Assembly: GCF_014925385.1 (NCBI RefSeq) | Contig: NZ_JACSDK010000001.1 | Location: 310,001 to 374,000, forward strand | Source: Pelagibius marinus | Lineage (GTDB): Bacteria; Pseudomonadota; Alphaproteobacteria; Kiloniellales; Kiloniellaceae | Reading direction: 5' to 3' | Length of the DNA stretch: 64,000 bases | In this document: piece after piece, positions 16,941 to 28,742 of the stretch | Layout of the letters: each line of letters opens with the position of its first letter | Position numbering within the stretch: the stretch's first letter is position 1 | Position numbers and translations under genes: made by a program | The notes under the pieces: model-generated | What the model saw: only the letters and a program-made list of their open reading frames with translations | Database searches by the model: none | Told to the model about the DNA's origin: nothing

Positions 16941-18053
16941 TCAGATGGGGCCGGCGGAGGGCGCTTCGCTGTACTTCCTCACCGCGCGCTCGATGTCCTG
17001 CAGCAACTCGGCGCCGACCTTGCCGCCGTCGCCGCGCACCTGCTTGTTGAAGACCACGCGCAGGGCATCGATGTGCGCTTCGATCAGTTTCAGGCGGTTG
17101 TCGGTGACCTTGCCGCGGGTATCCAGCGTCGCGTCGTAGAGCGACTTGCCGAAGGAGGTGATGAGCGGATAGTCGAAGATGCCGCCTTGGCCGCGCAGCT
17201 CGTGGGCGATCTGGTTGATGTTGACGATGTGCTGCTTGGGCTCTTCCTCTTGCTTCACCAGCGCCTTGTAGGACCGCGCCATGGTGTCGAGGTAGTTCTT
17301 CACCCAGACGGCGTAGTCGCCGACCATCTCCTGGATGCGGTTCTCGGCCGCCTGGATGACCAGCGGGTCGAAGTCGATCTGCCCGCGCAGCGCGTTGGGA
17401 CCCAGCTTGTCGCGCAGGCGATTGGCCGGGCGGAAGTAGATGGCGCGCACGTCGTCGCGCAGGGTGCGGATGTTGGAGCGGGCGTGGACCACCTGGATCT
17501 GCGAGGCCTCGGTGACGCGGCGGTTCTTTTCCGGCTGGCTGTAGTCGTCGGCGTAGCTCCAGCTCGTCGGCCGGTCCTGCCGGCGGCGGTCGGGGCCGAA
17601 GTAGCCGGGGGCCAGCACGTACTGGCGCGGGTTCTTGATGACCTCGACGATGCGGTCGCCCAGGCTCTTGGCTGAGAAGGGCTTGGCCAGGAACTCCGAC
17701 ACGCCGGCGTCGCGCGCCGCTTCGACGATCTGCTGGTCGGCGGCGCCGGAGACCATGACGAAGGGCACGAAGCGGTCGGGCGCCTGCTTGCTGGTGCGGA
17801 TCCAGCGCAGGAAGAGAGCGCCGTCCACTTCCTCCATCACGAAGTCGGAGAGAATGATGTCGATGGTGGCGAAGCCGGCGCTGACGGGATTGCGGCGGCT
17901 CTCGCTCAGCGCCTCGATGGCGGCGGTGGCCGAAGACCGGGCGACGATGTTGCTGATGCCGAGCATGCGCAGGGTGGAGACGACGAGGTTGCGCATGAAG
18001 GTGTTGTCGTCCACCACCAGGATGGTGATGTTGTCCCAATTCAGCTTCAGCAT
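16941..18053 (-). CDS. Receiver-domain protein with Hpt-like C-terminus (paralogue A)
   Basis: A 370-residue regulator. Residues 8-130 form a response-regulator receiver: acidic pair Asp15/Asp16 (VVDDN), phosphoacceptor Asp70 (LSDFVM), VMVSG, and the conserved Lys in FLAKPF. There is no DNA-binding domain. A conserved middle segment (DDVRAIYFRPANRLRDKLG, DFDPLVIQAAENRIQEMV) leads to a helical end with IAHELRGQGGIFDYPLITSFG; His284 sits in an Hpt-like motif. This suggests phosphotransfer within or between proteins. It is a close paralogue of the next upstream gene on the same strand. The partner kinase is not in the window. Confidence 0.85.
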   Translation of the reverse strand: MLKLNWDNITILVVDDNTFMRNLVVSTLRMLGISNIVARSSATAAIEALSESRRNPVSAGFATIDIILSDFVMEEVDGALFLRWIRTSKQAPDRFVPFVMVSGAADQQIVEAARDAGVSEFLAKPFSAKSLGDRIVEVIKNPRQYVLAPGYFGPDRRRQDRPTSWSYADDYSQPEKNRRVTEASQIQVVHARSNIRTLRDDVRAIYFRPANRLRDKLGPNALRGQIDFDPLVIQAAENRIQEMVGDYAVWVKNYLDTMARSYKALVKQEEEPKQHIVNINQIAHELRGQGGIFDYPLITSFGKSLYDATLDTRGKVTDNRLKLIEAHIDALRVVFNKQVRGDGGKVGAELLQDIERAVRKYSEAPSAGPI

Positions 18054-18314: not shown

Positions 18315-19433
18315 TCAGCCGTGCGCTTTGGGCTTGCGGGGTTCGCTGTATTTCTTCACCGCGGTCTCGATGTCCCTCAGCAGGGCCGCGCCGACCTCGC
18401 CGCCGCTGCCCCGGATCTGATTGGTGAAGACCAGCCGGATGGCGTCGATGTGCGCCTCCAGCAGCATCAGCCGGTTCTCGGTGATCGTGACGCTGCTGTC
18501 CGAGGTGGCCTCGTAAAGCGTCTTGCCGAAGGCGGTGATCAGCGGATAGTCGAAGATGCCGCCCTGGCCGCGCAGCTCGTGGGCCACGGTGTTGATGGTC
18601 ACCAGGTGCTTGTGGCTCGCACCTTCCTTCCTGGAGAGGGCGCGGTAGGCTTGCTGGATCTGGTCGACGTAGCGCTTCACCCAGAGCGAGTAGTCGCCGA
18701 CCAGTTCCTGGACCTTGGACTCGGCCGCCTGGACCACCAGGGGGTCGAAGTCGATCTGGCCGCGCAGCGCGTTGGGCCCCAGCTTGTCGCGCAGGCGGTT
18801 GGCCGGCCTGAAGTAGATGGCGCGCACGTCGTCACGCAGCGTGCGGACGTTGGAGAAGGCATGGACGACCTGGATTTCCGACGCCTTGGTCACACGTCGG
18901 TCCTTGCCGTCGTGGCCGGAGGCGCCAGCGCCGGCGCCCCACAGCGCCGGGCGGTCCTGGCGCCGCCGGTCCGGACCGAAGTAGCCCGGGGCCAGGACGA
19001 ACTGCCTGGGGTTCTTGATCACCTCCAGGACGCGGTCGCTCAGCGACTTGGCCGAGAAGGGCTTGGCCAGAAACTCCGTCAGGCCGGCGTCGCGAGCGGT
19101 CTCCACGGCCCCCTGGTCGGCCGCGCCGGACACCATCACGAAGGGCACGAAGCGGTCCGGCGCATCCTTGCTGGTGCGGATCCAGCGCAGGAACAGCAGT
19201 CCGTCCACCTGCGCCATGACGAAGTCGGAAAAAATGATGTCTATGCTGCCGATGCCCGCGCTGACCGGATCCTTGCGGCTGAGCTTCAGCCGGTCGATCG
19301 CGTCGCGGGCGTTGCCCATGTCGGTGACGTTGGTCAGGCCCAGGATGCGCAGGGTGGAGACGATGAGGTTGCGGATGAAGGCGTTGTCATCGACGACCAG
19401 GACGTTGATGTTGTCCCACTTCAATTTCGGCAT
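18315..19433 (-). CDS. Receiver-domain protein with Hpt-like C-terminus (paralogue B)
   Basis: A 372-residue paralogue of the downstream gene, colinear over its whole length. It keeps the receiver residues Asp15/Asp16, Asp70 (FSDFVM), VMVSG and FLAKPF, the linker YFGPDRRRQDRPA, the central block DDVRAIYFRPANRLRDKLG, and the C-terminal VAHELRGQGGIFDYPLITAFG with His285. The two differ most in the short linker at about 165-180 and at the extreme C-terminus. Tandem retention suggests divided roles, such as responding to different kinases. No HTH or enzymatic output domain is seen. Confidence 0.85.
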   Translation of the reverse strand: MPKLKWDNINVLVVDDNAFIRNLIVSTLRILGLTNVTDMGNARDAIDRLKLSRKDPVSAGIGSIDIIFSDFVMAQVDGLLFLRWIRTSKDAPDRFVPFVMVSGAADQGAVETARDAGLTEFLAKPFSAKSLSDRVLEVIKNPRQFVLAPGYFGPDRRRQDRPALWGAGAGASGHDGKDRRVTKASEIQVVHAFSNVRTLRDDVRAIYFRPANRLRDKLGPNALRGQIDFDPLVVQAAESKVQELVGDYSLWVKRYVDQIQQAYRALSRKEGASHKHLVTINTVAHELRGQGGIFDYPLITAFGKTLYEATSDSSVTITENRLMLLEAHIDAIRLVFTNQIRGSGGEVGAALLRDIETAVKKYSEPRKPKAHG

Positions 19434-26931: not shown

Positions 26932-27177
26932 GGGGCGCGGTTTCCGCTTCGTTTCGAATTGATGCCGGTTACCGCCTCTAGGTATCAGCAAGAATCGGCC
27001 CCCGCAAGCTGAAGGCCCCGCCGTCCCCCTTTCGACACCGCACCAAGCCAGGGGAACGCTCCGGCCGGCAATCCGGCACAAAAGGGGTAACTGACGAGGC
27101 GCCGGACCTTCCGAGCCCCTTTCACGAAGAAATTTGCTACCCTGGCGTTCTGGCACCCTTGGGGGAGGGTAGAGACC

Positions 27178-27951
27178 ATGATCGAATCCAGGTACAGGGA
27201 CGGCTCGGATCGCGGGCGCCCACAGCGTCTCCTTGCCACTGTGTTGGCCGGACTTTTCCTGGCTTTGGCGCCGCTCGGCGCGCTTGCCAACCAGGAAAAG
27301 GAAAACAAGGACAAGGACACCCAGTCGCGTCACGAACTGCAGGATCTGGCGCACATCCCGCTGACCCTCAGCGGTGGCATCCGGGAAGATATCCATAACG
27401 TCATCGTCATCCAGACCCGCTTCATCACCGTCAAGCAGACCCGCTTCGGCATCGACAGCGATAACCTGGACCGGGCCAACGTCAGCGAGGTGCCGCTGCT
27501 GGGCAGCCTCTTCGAGAAGCCGCTGCGGGGCGCGGACCTGACCGACGCCAACCGCGTCGGCGCCGTTTACAGCACCGGCAACGGCGGCCTCGTGGCCTTT
27601 GTCGACGACGGCGTCGCTGTCGATGAAAGTGGCATCAGCGTCGTCAACGCGAAATTCCGCTACACCCTCACCGGCCCCGCGCAGGCGGCCCAGGCGGGGC
27701 AGCTCGACCTCGGGGAGCTCGGCAAGCTGACCTCGGTGGGGCAGGCCGTCACCGGCCAGGCACCGGAGGGAACGACGATCGTGCTGCGGGGCCTCACGAC
27801 CACCTCGGTGCCGCCGGTGGAGGACAAGGTTCCGGTGCTGGGCGATGTGCCGGTGCTGCGGCAGTTCTTTCGTGGCAGCGTCCACAGCTTCAAAGACGAT
27901 CTGATTTTCTTCGTCCGTCCTTCGATCATCGCCGGCGACGGGGCGGATTGA
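27178..27951 (+). CDS. Small exported secretin-domain protein (paralogue 1)
   Basis: A 257-residue protein with a signal peptide (about 17-38, cleavage after LGALA) and a Lys/Glu-rich linker. The rest resembles the C-terminal secretin domain of GspD/Pil[20 protein letters not shown] (76-92) matches the domain entry, EVPLLGSLF lies at 104-112, GTTIVLRGL at 198-206, [15 protein letters not shown] at 217-231 and [10 protein letters not shown] at 242-251. It lacks the N0-N3 ring domains and is too short for a complete secretin. The strong GGGGGAGGG ribosome site fits ATG at 27178. It is followed after 47 bases by a paralogue. Its function is unknown. Confidence 0.8.
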
Positions 27952-27998
27952 CGGGCGGCCTGTCGTTTCAGGTTTTTTTGGGAGAGAGACCTCAAACC

Positions 27999-28742
27999 AT
28001 GATCAAGCGAAATCTTCTGGTGGCTCTCCTGGCGGCCACCCTCGTGCTGCAGGGCGCCGCCGGCGCCTGGGCGACCAATAAGGACAAAGACCGCGAAGAG
28101 GACCGCGACGGCCAATCGCGCTATGAGCTGGCGCCCCTGGCCTACCTGCCGCTGGTCTTCGCCGGCGCCGCGCAGGAGCGCATCGCCAAGATGTACTTCC
28201 TGATGCAGACCGCGAGCTACCTGGTCGAAATGACGACGGGGGTGAAGGCCACCAGCCAGAACCGCGTCAGCCTCGGCGGGCTGTTCGGCGGTGTCTTTGC
28301 CAAGACCTATTCGGCGGAGGACTTCATCGAGTCGCTGGAAGTCGGTACCGTCTACCGCGCCGGTGACGGGCTGCTCGCGGTGGCGATGGAAGGCGACGAG
28401 GTGCTGTCGGACCACAAGGTCATCGTGTTCAACGGCGACTACCAGTACGACCCGAAGGCCCTGCCGTCGCTGCAGCAGGTCGAACCCGCACAGCTGCAGA
28501 AACTGCAGGCCTATTCGCTGATGGTGGAACTGGCCCATCACACTTTGACGACGCCGTTGGTGAACGTGATAGCCAGGCTGAACCACGTGAGTGCCGACCA
28601 GCTGACAGGCACCCCGGACCTGACCCCGGCGCATGAGACGGAGATCCCCGTCCTGCGTAAACTGATTGTCGGCAAGGTCTATCGCGGTCCCGACAACACC
28701 CTGCTGGTGGTCATCCCGCCGGCCATTGTGCAGGACCGCTAG
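27999..28742 (+). CDS. Small exported secretin-like protein (paralogue 2)
   Basis: The 247-residue protein has a signal peptide (about 1-26, LQGAAGAWA), the same charged linker followed by [14 protein letters not shown] (compare [14 protein letters not shown] in paralogue 1), a [11 protein letters not shown] segment at the position of [12 protein letters not shown], and a secretin-like end [30 protein letters not shown] (about 215-244). It is more divergent than paralogue 1. GGGAGAGAG precedes ATG at 27999. No other secretion-system gene (ATPase, pseudopilin, pilotin) is nearby. The two genes are almost certainly one operon. Confidence 0.75.

Follow-up and report, generated by a model that had tools for sequence, protein, structure and literature searches.

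Secretins are ring-shaped channels of the outer membrane and the gated parts of large machines. In the secretin domain, a segment of the form SPxxLxLNxxxAxxxVG leads into Gate 1. The secretin of rhizobial type III secretion systems is reportedly split, with the secretin domain and the N-domains on separate polypeptides (RhcC1 and RhcC2), whose genes sit in the T3SS cluster. The phage protein pIV is a short secretin and was used here as the structural reference for gate mapping. In pIV, G267 and G297 serve as the hinges of Gate 1 and D321 and N335 as the points around which Gate 2 turns, and E185–R337 links the inner and outer barrels (PMC8563730). In jakobids, heteroloboseans and malawimonads, mitochondrial GspD and its paralogue GspDL were described (PMC8134430). 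This GspD has lost N0–N3 and still oligomerises and makes pores; by modelling it has kept the C-domain fold, and it co-occurs with GspE, F and G (PMC8134430). The amphipathic helical loop (AHL), which separates two transmembrane strands, was described as essential for the membrane insertion of secretins (PMC8134430).

In the window, i.e. the whole stretch of 64,000 nucleotides of Pelagibius marinus DNA that was analysed, two neighbouring open reading frames were found on the same strand at 27178–27951 (gene A) and 27999–28742 (gene B), in agreement with the tandem pair reported in the first-pass annotation. The following features were assigned.

27134..27145, (+): –10-like element TTTGCTACCCTG, conserved ahead of the gene (alignment of the regions upstream of the Pelagibius copies)
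27178..27951, (+): gene A, secretin-derived, predicted exported protein of 257 aa (ORF and PF00263, E 2.3e-10)
27178..27288, (+): gene A, signal-peptide-like N-terminus, aa 1–37 (sequence inspection)
27289..27345, (+): gene A, charged linker and QSRHE motif, aa 38–56
27400..27456, (+): gene A, aa 75–93, counterpart of the first strand of the secretin domain
27490..27513, (+): gene A, first AHL-like motif VPLLGSLF, family-specific, aa 105–112, at the secretin beta-lip position (motif scan)
27553..27603, (+): gene A, first hairpin, about aa 126–142 (model strands 126–132 and 137–142, and repeat comparison)
27631..27669, (+): gene A, about aa 152–164, counterpart of the secretin SPxxLxLNxxxAxxxVG segment (alignments)
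27670..27774, (+): gene A, shorter segment replacing the distal Gate 1 and inner-barrel strands
27775..27798, (+): gene A, penultimate outer-barrel strand TIVLRGL, about aa 200–206
27829..27870, (+): gene A, AHL, aa 218–231 (motif scan)
27871..27930, (+): gene A, last secretin hairpin (Pfam match and model)
27957..27974, (+): terminator-like stem-loop and T run between A and B (consensus scan only)
27999..28742, (+): gene B, paralogue of A with no recognisable secretin score, 247 aa (start ATG 27999)
28338..28388, (+): gene B, first hairpin, aa 114–130 (model)
28641..28664, (+): gene B, AHL remnant EIPVLRKL, aa 215–222 (fails the AHL pattern)
28665..28715, (+): gene B, last hairpin, aa 223–239 (model)

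As had been noticed before, both proteins start with a signal-peptide-like N-terminus, followed by a K/D/E-rich linker and a QSR(H/Y)EL motif. In A, cleavage of the AxA type would putatively occur after GALA, and A35 and A37 were invariant in the Pelagibius alignment. The upstream element of the Pelagibius relatives reads TCTGCTAT(C/G)ATC, i.e. it is (T)CTGCTAT(C/G)ATC-like, and lies about 35–45 bases 5' of the start codon, which suggests a possible –10 of an own promoter; a sigma-70 promoter scan upstream of A found no site. The stem-loop at 27957–27974 might attenuate B relative to A. The consensus scan that recognised it returned 5 sites where 1.7 were expected.

Gene A matched the Secretin family PF00263 with 40.8 bits (cut-off 27.5), and the match was limited to the last ∼57 residues (aa 195–251, profile positions 111–168 of 169). 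Against canonical secretins, A was significant only over its C-terminal part (aligned columns 155–255); its N-terminal half was too diverged for a direct match. Gene B had no secretin match in Pfam, NCBIfam or PHROGs. Its homology to A (28% identity, E 2.6e-16) is the reason why B was counted as secretin-related by descent rather than by its own score. The secretin resemblance proposed for both C-termini in the first-pass annotation was thus confirmed by profile comparison for A, while for B it holds only through A.

The relatives of A were more informative. PF00263 scores above the cut-off were also obtained for several of them, with the highest (72.8 bits, E 3.3e-20, two stretches) for the protein of genome G145. 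The proteins of genus g17 (253–259 aa) aligned with canonical secretins, solved ones included, in two co-linear stretches, aa 48–172 and aa 194–257, skipping secretin model positions 132–195. The best-preserved members align with the first strand, the SPxxLxLN segment, the penultimate strand, the AHL and the last strand of secretins. It was through the G145 and g17 relatives, alignable there to canonical secretins, that aa 75–93 of A were assigned to the first strand. No family of N-domains was matched in any member scanned, and there is no space for such domains ahead of the first strand, in line with the absence of N0–N3 pointed out earlier. It could be argued that secretin kinship is lacking altogether and that the AHL-like C-terminus is convergent, since neither predicted model has a fold match and B has no secretin score. 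Nevertheless, the E value of the G145 protein and the two co-linear stretches in g17 bring this explanation close to refutation. The family very probably descends from the secretin C-domain, as judged from these alignments.

Apart from one clean deletion, the best-preserved relatives can be aligned over the whole length of secretin domains. In the alignment, the G145 and g17 members had no counterpart of residues 278–318 of phage f1 pIV. On the published pIV structure, this gap indicates that the distal half of Gate 1, the hinge G297 and the following inner-barrel strands are gone. The sites of E185 and R337 were occupied by V/T and A in the same relatives, so that both partners of the salt bridge were lost, whereas both residues were kept in all six canonical secretins from related genomes. 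In A, a T stands where secretins have the conserved E (pIV E185), and the segment at 27670..27774 is equally short; both were read by alignment with the G145 and g17 members, the gap having been mapped on these relatives and not on A directly. A double-walled barrel with an inner barrel and Gates 1 and 2 would thus probably not be formed. The description as a 'stand-alone secretin domain' was apt with respect to secretin ancestry and to the lack of a partner machine, but the domain is incomplete, given the losses of gate, inner barrel and salt bridge in the best-preserved relatives.

The AHL, on the other hand, was kept and apparently doubled. The AHL signature of A is L-x11-VPxLGDxPxLxxxF, and the pattern with exactly 11 residues from the preceding strand, the same as in canonical secretins, was found in A and in the members from G145, G050, G003 and G002; B and the short members fail it. 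In addition, a P-x-x-(G/S/R)-type motif was observed at the lip position in 14 of 16 family members, most clearly as VPLLGSLF, whereas no second AHL-like copy was seen there in 13 canonical secretins. When the N-terminal motif and hairpin were compared profile to profile with the C-terminal ones, the score was 32.8, and the maximum of 100 column shuffles was 13.9. The unit of AHL plus hairpin therefore looks duplicated, although it was this targeted comparison that found the repeat, self-comparison of the full family profile having found none. The first hairpin of B resembles its own C-terminal hairpin in register. The shortest members are reduced to the lip motif, the LNxxxA segment and the two hairpins, and yet such members show conservation.

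Because A keeps the AHL, the element for membrane insertion in secretins, a pore has to be considered: a ring of A, with or without B, could insert through the AHLs and form a small, ungated outer-membrane pore for uptake or release. The signal peptides, the exact spacing of the AHL and its flanking strands, the rapid evolution of the protein beside well-conserved flanking genes, and the pores made by mitochondrial GspD without N0–N3 (PMC8134430) are all compatible with such a ring. But strands of the inner barrel have been lost together with the salt bridge between the barrels, the AHL is absent from B and the short members, and the predicted strands are only about 5–9 residues long. Moreover, mitochondrial GspD kept the C-domain fold in modelling, which the family here did not match. 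We regard the pore as possible but unlikely.

The AlphaFold models of A (pLDDT 66, pTM 0.65) and B (pLDDT 71, pTM 0.69) were each built from an alignment of 7 rows. Their elements follow a common order of N-terminal hairpins, a hairpin at aa 126–142 (A) or 114–130 (B), two short strands, helices and a final hairpin. A fold search with the monomer models against solved structures (PDB), i.e. the structural comparison suggested by the first-pass annotation, gave no match; with only 7 alignment rows, this outcome counts but weakly against the fold of a secretin protomer. As the models are compact, the short members consist of only two hairpins with no AHL, and the protein of G009 starts with the twin-arginine-type signal MTFSRRKFI, unusual for an outer-membrane barrel, A and B might be soluble periplasmic beta-proteins made from a secretin fragment, with no membrane or oligomeric role. 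However, A-type members conserve the AHL and its strands, and the twin-arginine signal was called by pattern matching and in very few members, which makes a purely soluble protein quite improbable.

The gene pair is preceded by rpe and followed by rsmB, an M48 peptidase gene (HtpX-type) and an EamA transporter gene, with no secretion gene among these neighbours. The earlier observation that no ATPase, pseudopilin or platform gene is nearby was upheld: the only two T2SSE ATPases of the genome adjoin the CpaC-type secretin genes of two Tad-type loci on other contigs (C16 and C17). Nor was any of the members examined found in a T2SS or T4P locus, or linked to Tad in any genome examined, so that the complete locus which would have spoken against an orphan family did not turn up. 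In all eight Pelagibius genomes the gene lies between rpe and rsmB, and no flanking gene was in common between genera. From this fixed place and the lack of shared neighbours, it appears that the function does not depend on a machine encoded alongside. Assigning a function by neighbours was rejected on the same lack of a neighbour common across genera, and since TRAP-type transporter genes accompany the gene in only part of the Pelagibius genomes. Such transporter genes were recognised by eye in L078, L079 and L094, where they separate the family gene from rsmB; G000, G002, G004 and G005 have none there. Elsewhere in the window, at 16941–18053 and 18315–19433 (–), two tandem paralogues of ∼370 aa are encoded; each has a response-regulator receiver domain at its N-terminus, and no output domain was recognised in either.

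At least one canonical secretin is present in every one of the 15 carrier genomes checked, and dependence on such a secretin may therefore exist. A and B could be accessory or cap subunits, most likely of Tad CpaC, which would co-assemble through common strands and the AHL; the genome of the window has two Tad-type loci. But there is no linkage to Tad, and most genomes of the same order that are devoid of the family have a canonical secretin too, so the co-occurrence carries little weight and an accessory role is considered improbable.

The family consists of stand-alone proteins of about 185–275 aa, which were present in all eight Pelagibius genomes searched, in genera g17, g3, g28, g5 and g16, and in another four families of Alphaproteobacteria. 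In an even sample of Alphaproteobacteria, 8 of 385 genomes were carriers. A phylum sample of 398 genomes yielded no stand-alone member beyond this class; what the search returned there were full-length secretins only, each encoded by an ORF of 464 codons or more. An origin from plasmids was rejected, as the plasmid search gave nothing but E. coli GspD genes, and of these only the C-terminal piece, and so was a phage origin, viral contigs having given one 57-residue match and the phage search only pIV-type secretins. Twin-arginine-like signals (MTFSRRKFITGL and similar) were noted in the distant members L020/L088 (G009), L089 (G020) and L093 (G034), and are unexpected for descendants of an outer-membrane channel. 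A 185-aa relative at L092:4555–5112 (G011) has a clear secretin C-terminus and no obvious signal peptide, and is possibly a truncated or mis-started copy.

Pairing of the orthologues, which was to be checked, turned out not to be general: two copies were found only in G000 and G004, and the other six of the eight Pelagibius genomes have a single gene. In the tree, the A copies of G000 and G004 group together, and the B copies of these two genomes group with the single gene of G005, with G002 further out. This grouping points to A and B as old paralogues, one copy of which was probably lost in most lineages.

Within Pelagibius, protein identity to the copies in the window was 31–67% where that of rpe was 79–95%, indicating that the family proteins evolve fast. 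The dN/dS values were below 1, with 0.24 in two close pairs and 0.58–0.76 in the A and B lineages. The fast divergence, the latter values and the stepwise loss of secretin features would fit a decaying fragment with no function. Against this, the ORF is intact at one place in 8/8 Pelagibius genomes, its motifs are conserved, the genes have been retained across several orders, and the dN/dS of 0.24 in the close pairs is low; decay is hence very unlikely. As the same kind of protein recurs at the same place and dN/dS is below 1, the gene pair is not a matter of chance, and on the value of the two close pairs the family is judged to be under purifying selection.

Taken together, we favour, with a probability of roughly 50%, that A and B are exported, autonomous envelope proteins derived from a secretin, which belong to an undescribed family and are not a secretion conduit. 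After export, predicted from the N-termini, the protein would fold into a compact set of beta-hairpins and might self-associate by way of the edge strands inherited from the secretin; it would be located on the periplasmic side of the outer membrane or partly inside it. B has presumably drifted further from the secretin template and is probably expressed together with A, as a partner or as a variant subunit. That parts of the gate, strands of the inner barrel, the N-rings and the linkage have been lost speaks against a continued role as conduit in secretion or pilus machines, whereas the kept and duplicated AHL speaks for self-association or for contact of some kind with the outer membrane. 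A more far-reaching proposal, that this gateless, N-domain-free derivative with two AHLs per subunit self-assembles in the alphaproteobacterial outer membrane as an autonomous ring or pore independent of any secretion or pilus machine, is put forward only tentatively and seems rather doubtful.

Compared with the canonical secretins (Tad RcpA/CpaC, GspD, PilQ, MshL and pIV; PF00263), with which it has the signal peptide in common, the family lacks N0–N3, the distal Gate 1, the hinge G297, the inner-barrel strands and E185–R337; its Gate 2 is shortened, its lip carries an extra AHL-like copy, and no machine is linked to it. Even pIV retains N0, N3, the inner barrel and both gates. Unlike in the RhcC1/RhcC2 arrangement, the gene adjacent to A encodes a paralogue and not an N-domain protein. 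The nearest precedent is mitochondrial GspD, which likewise comprises the C-domain part of a secretin, devoid of N0–N3 and the S-domain, has kept the AHL (as in A) and exists as a paralogous pair (GspD/GspDL). The family here differs by the internal gate deletion, the duplicated AHL and the lack of partner genes; the T2SSE ATPases that might have stood for a GspE/F/G set belong to the two unlinked Tad-type loci. The first-pass annotation, which knew of no described system with this architecture, therefore overlooked a precedent for the loss of N-domains (PMC8134430), but was otherwise right for the literature searched: for stand-alone, orphan, truncated or gateless secretins no such bacterial family was found, subscription papers lying outside the coverage. 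On this literature, the gateless orphan family derived from secretins is undescribed.

If true, a natural family that keeps and has duplicated the AHL, but has dispensed with parts of the gate, the inner wall and the N-rings, would show which parts of a secretin can stand alone. Its members would be small test proteins for secretin insertion in the absence of the usual barrel-assembly machinery, and the family would explain secretin-domain annotations on orphan genes.
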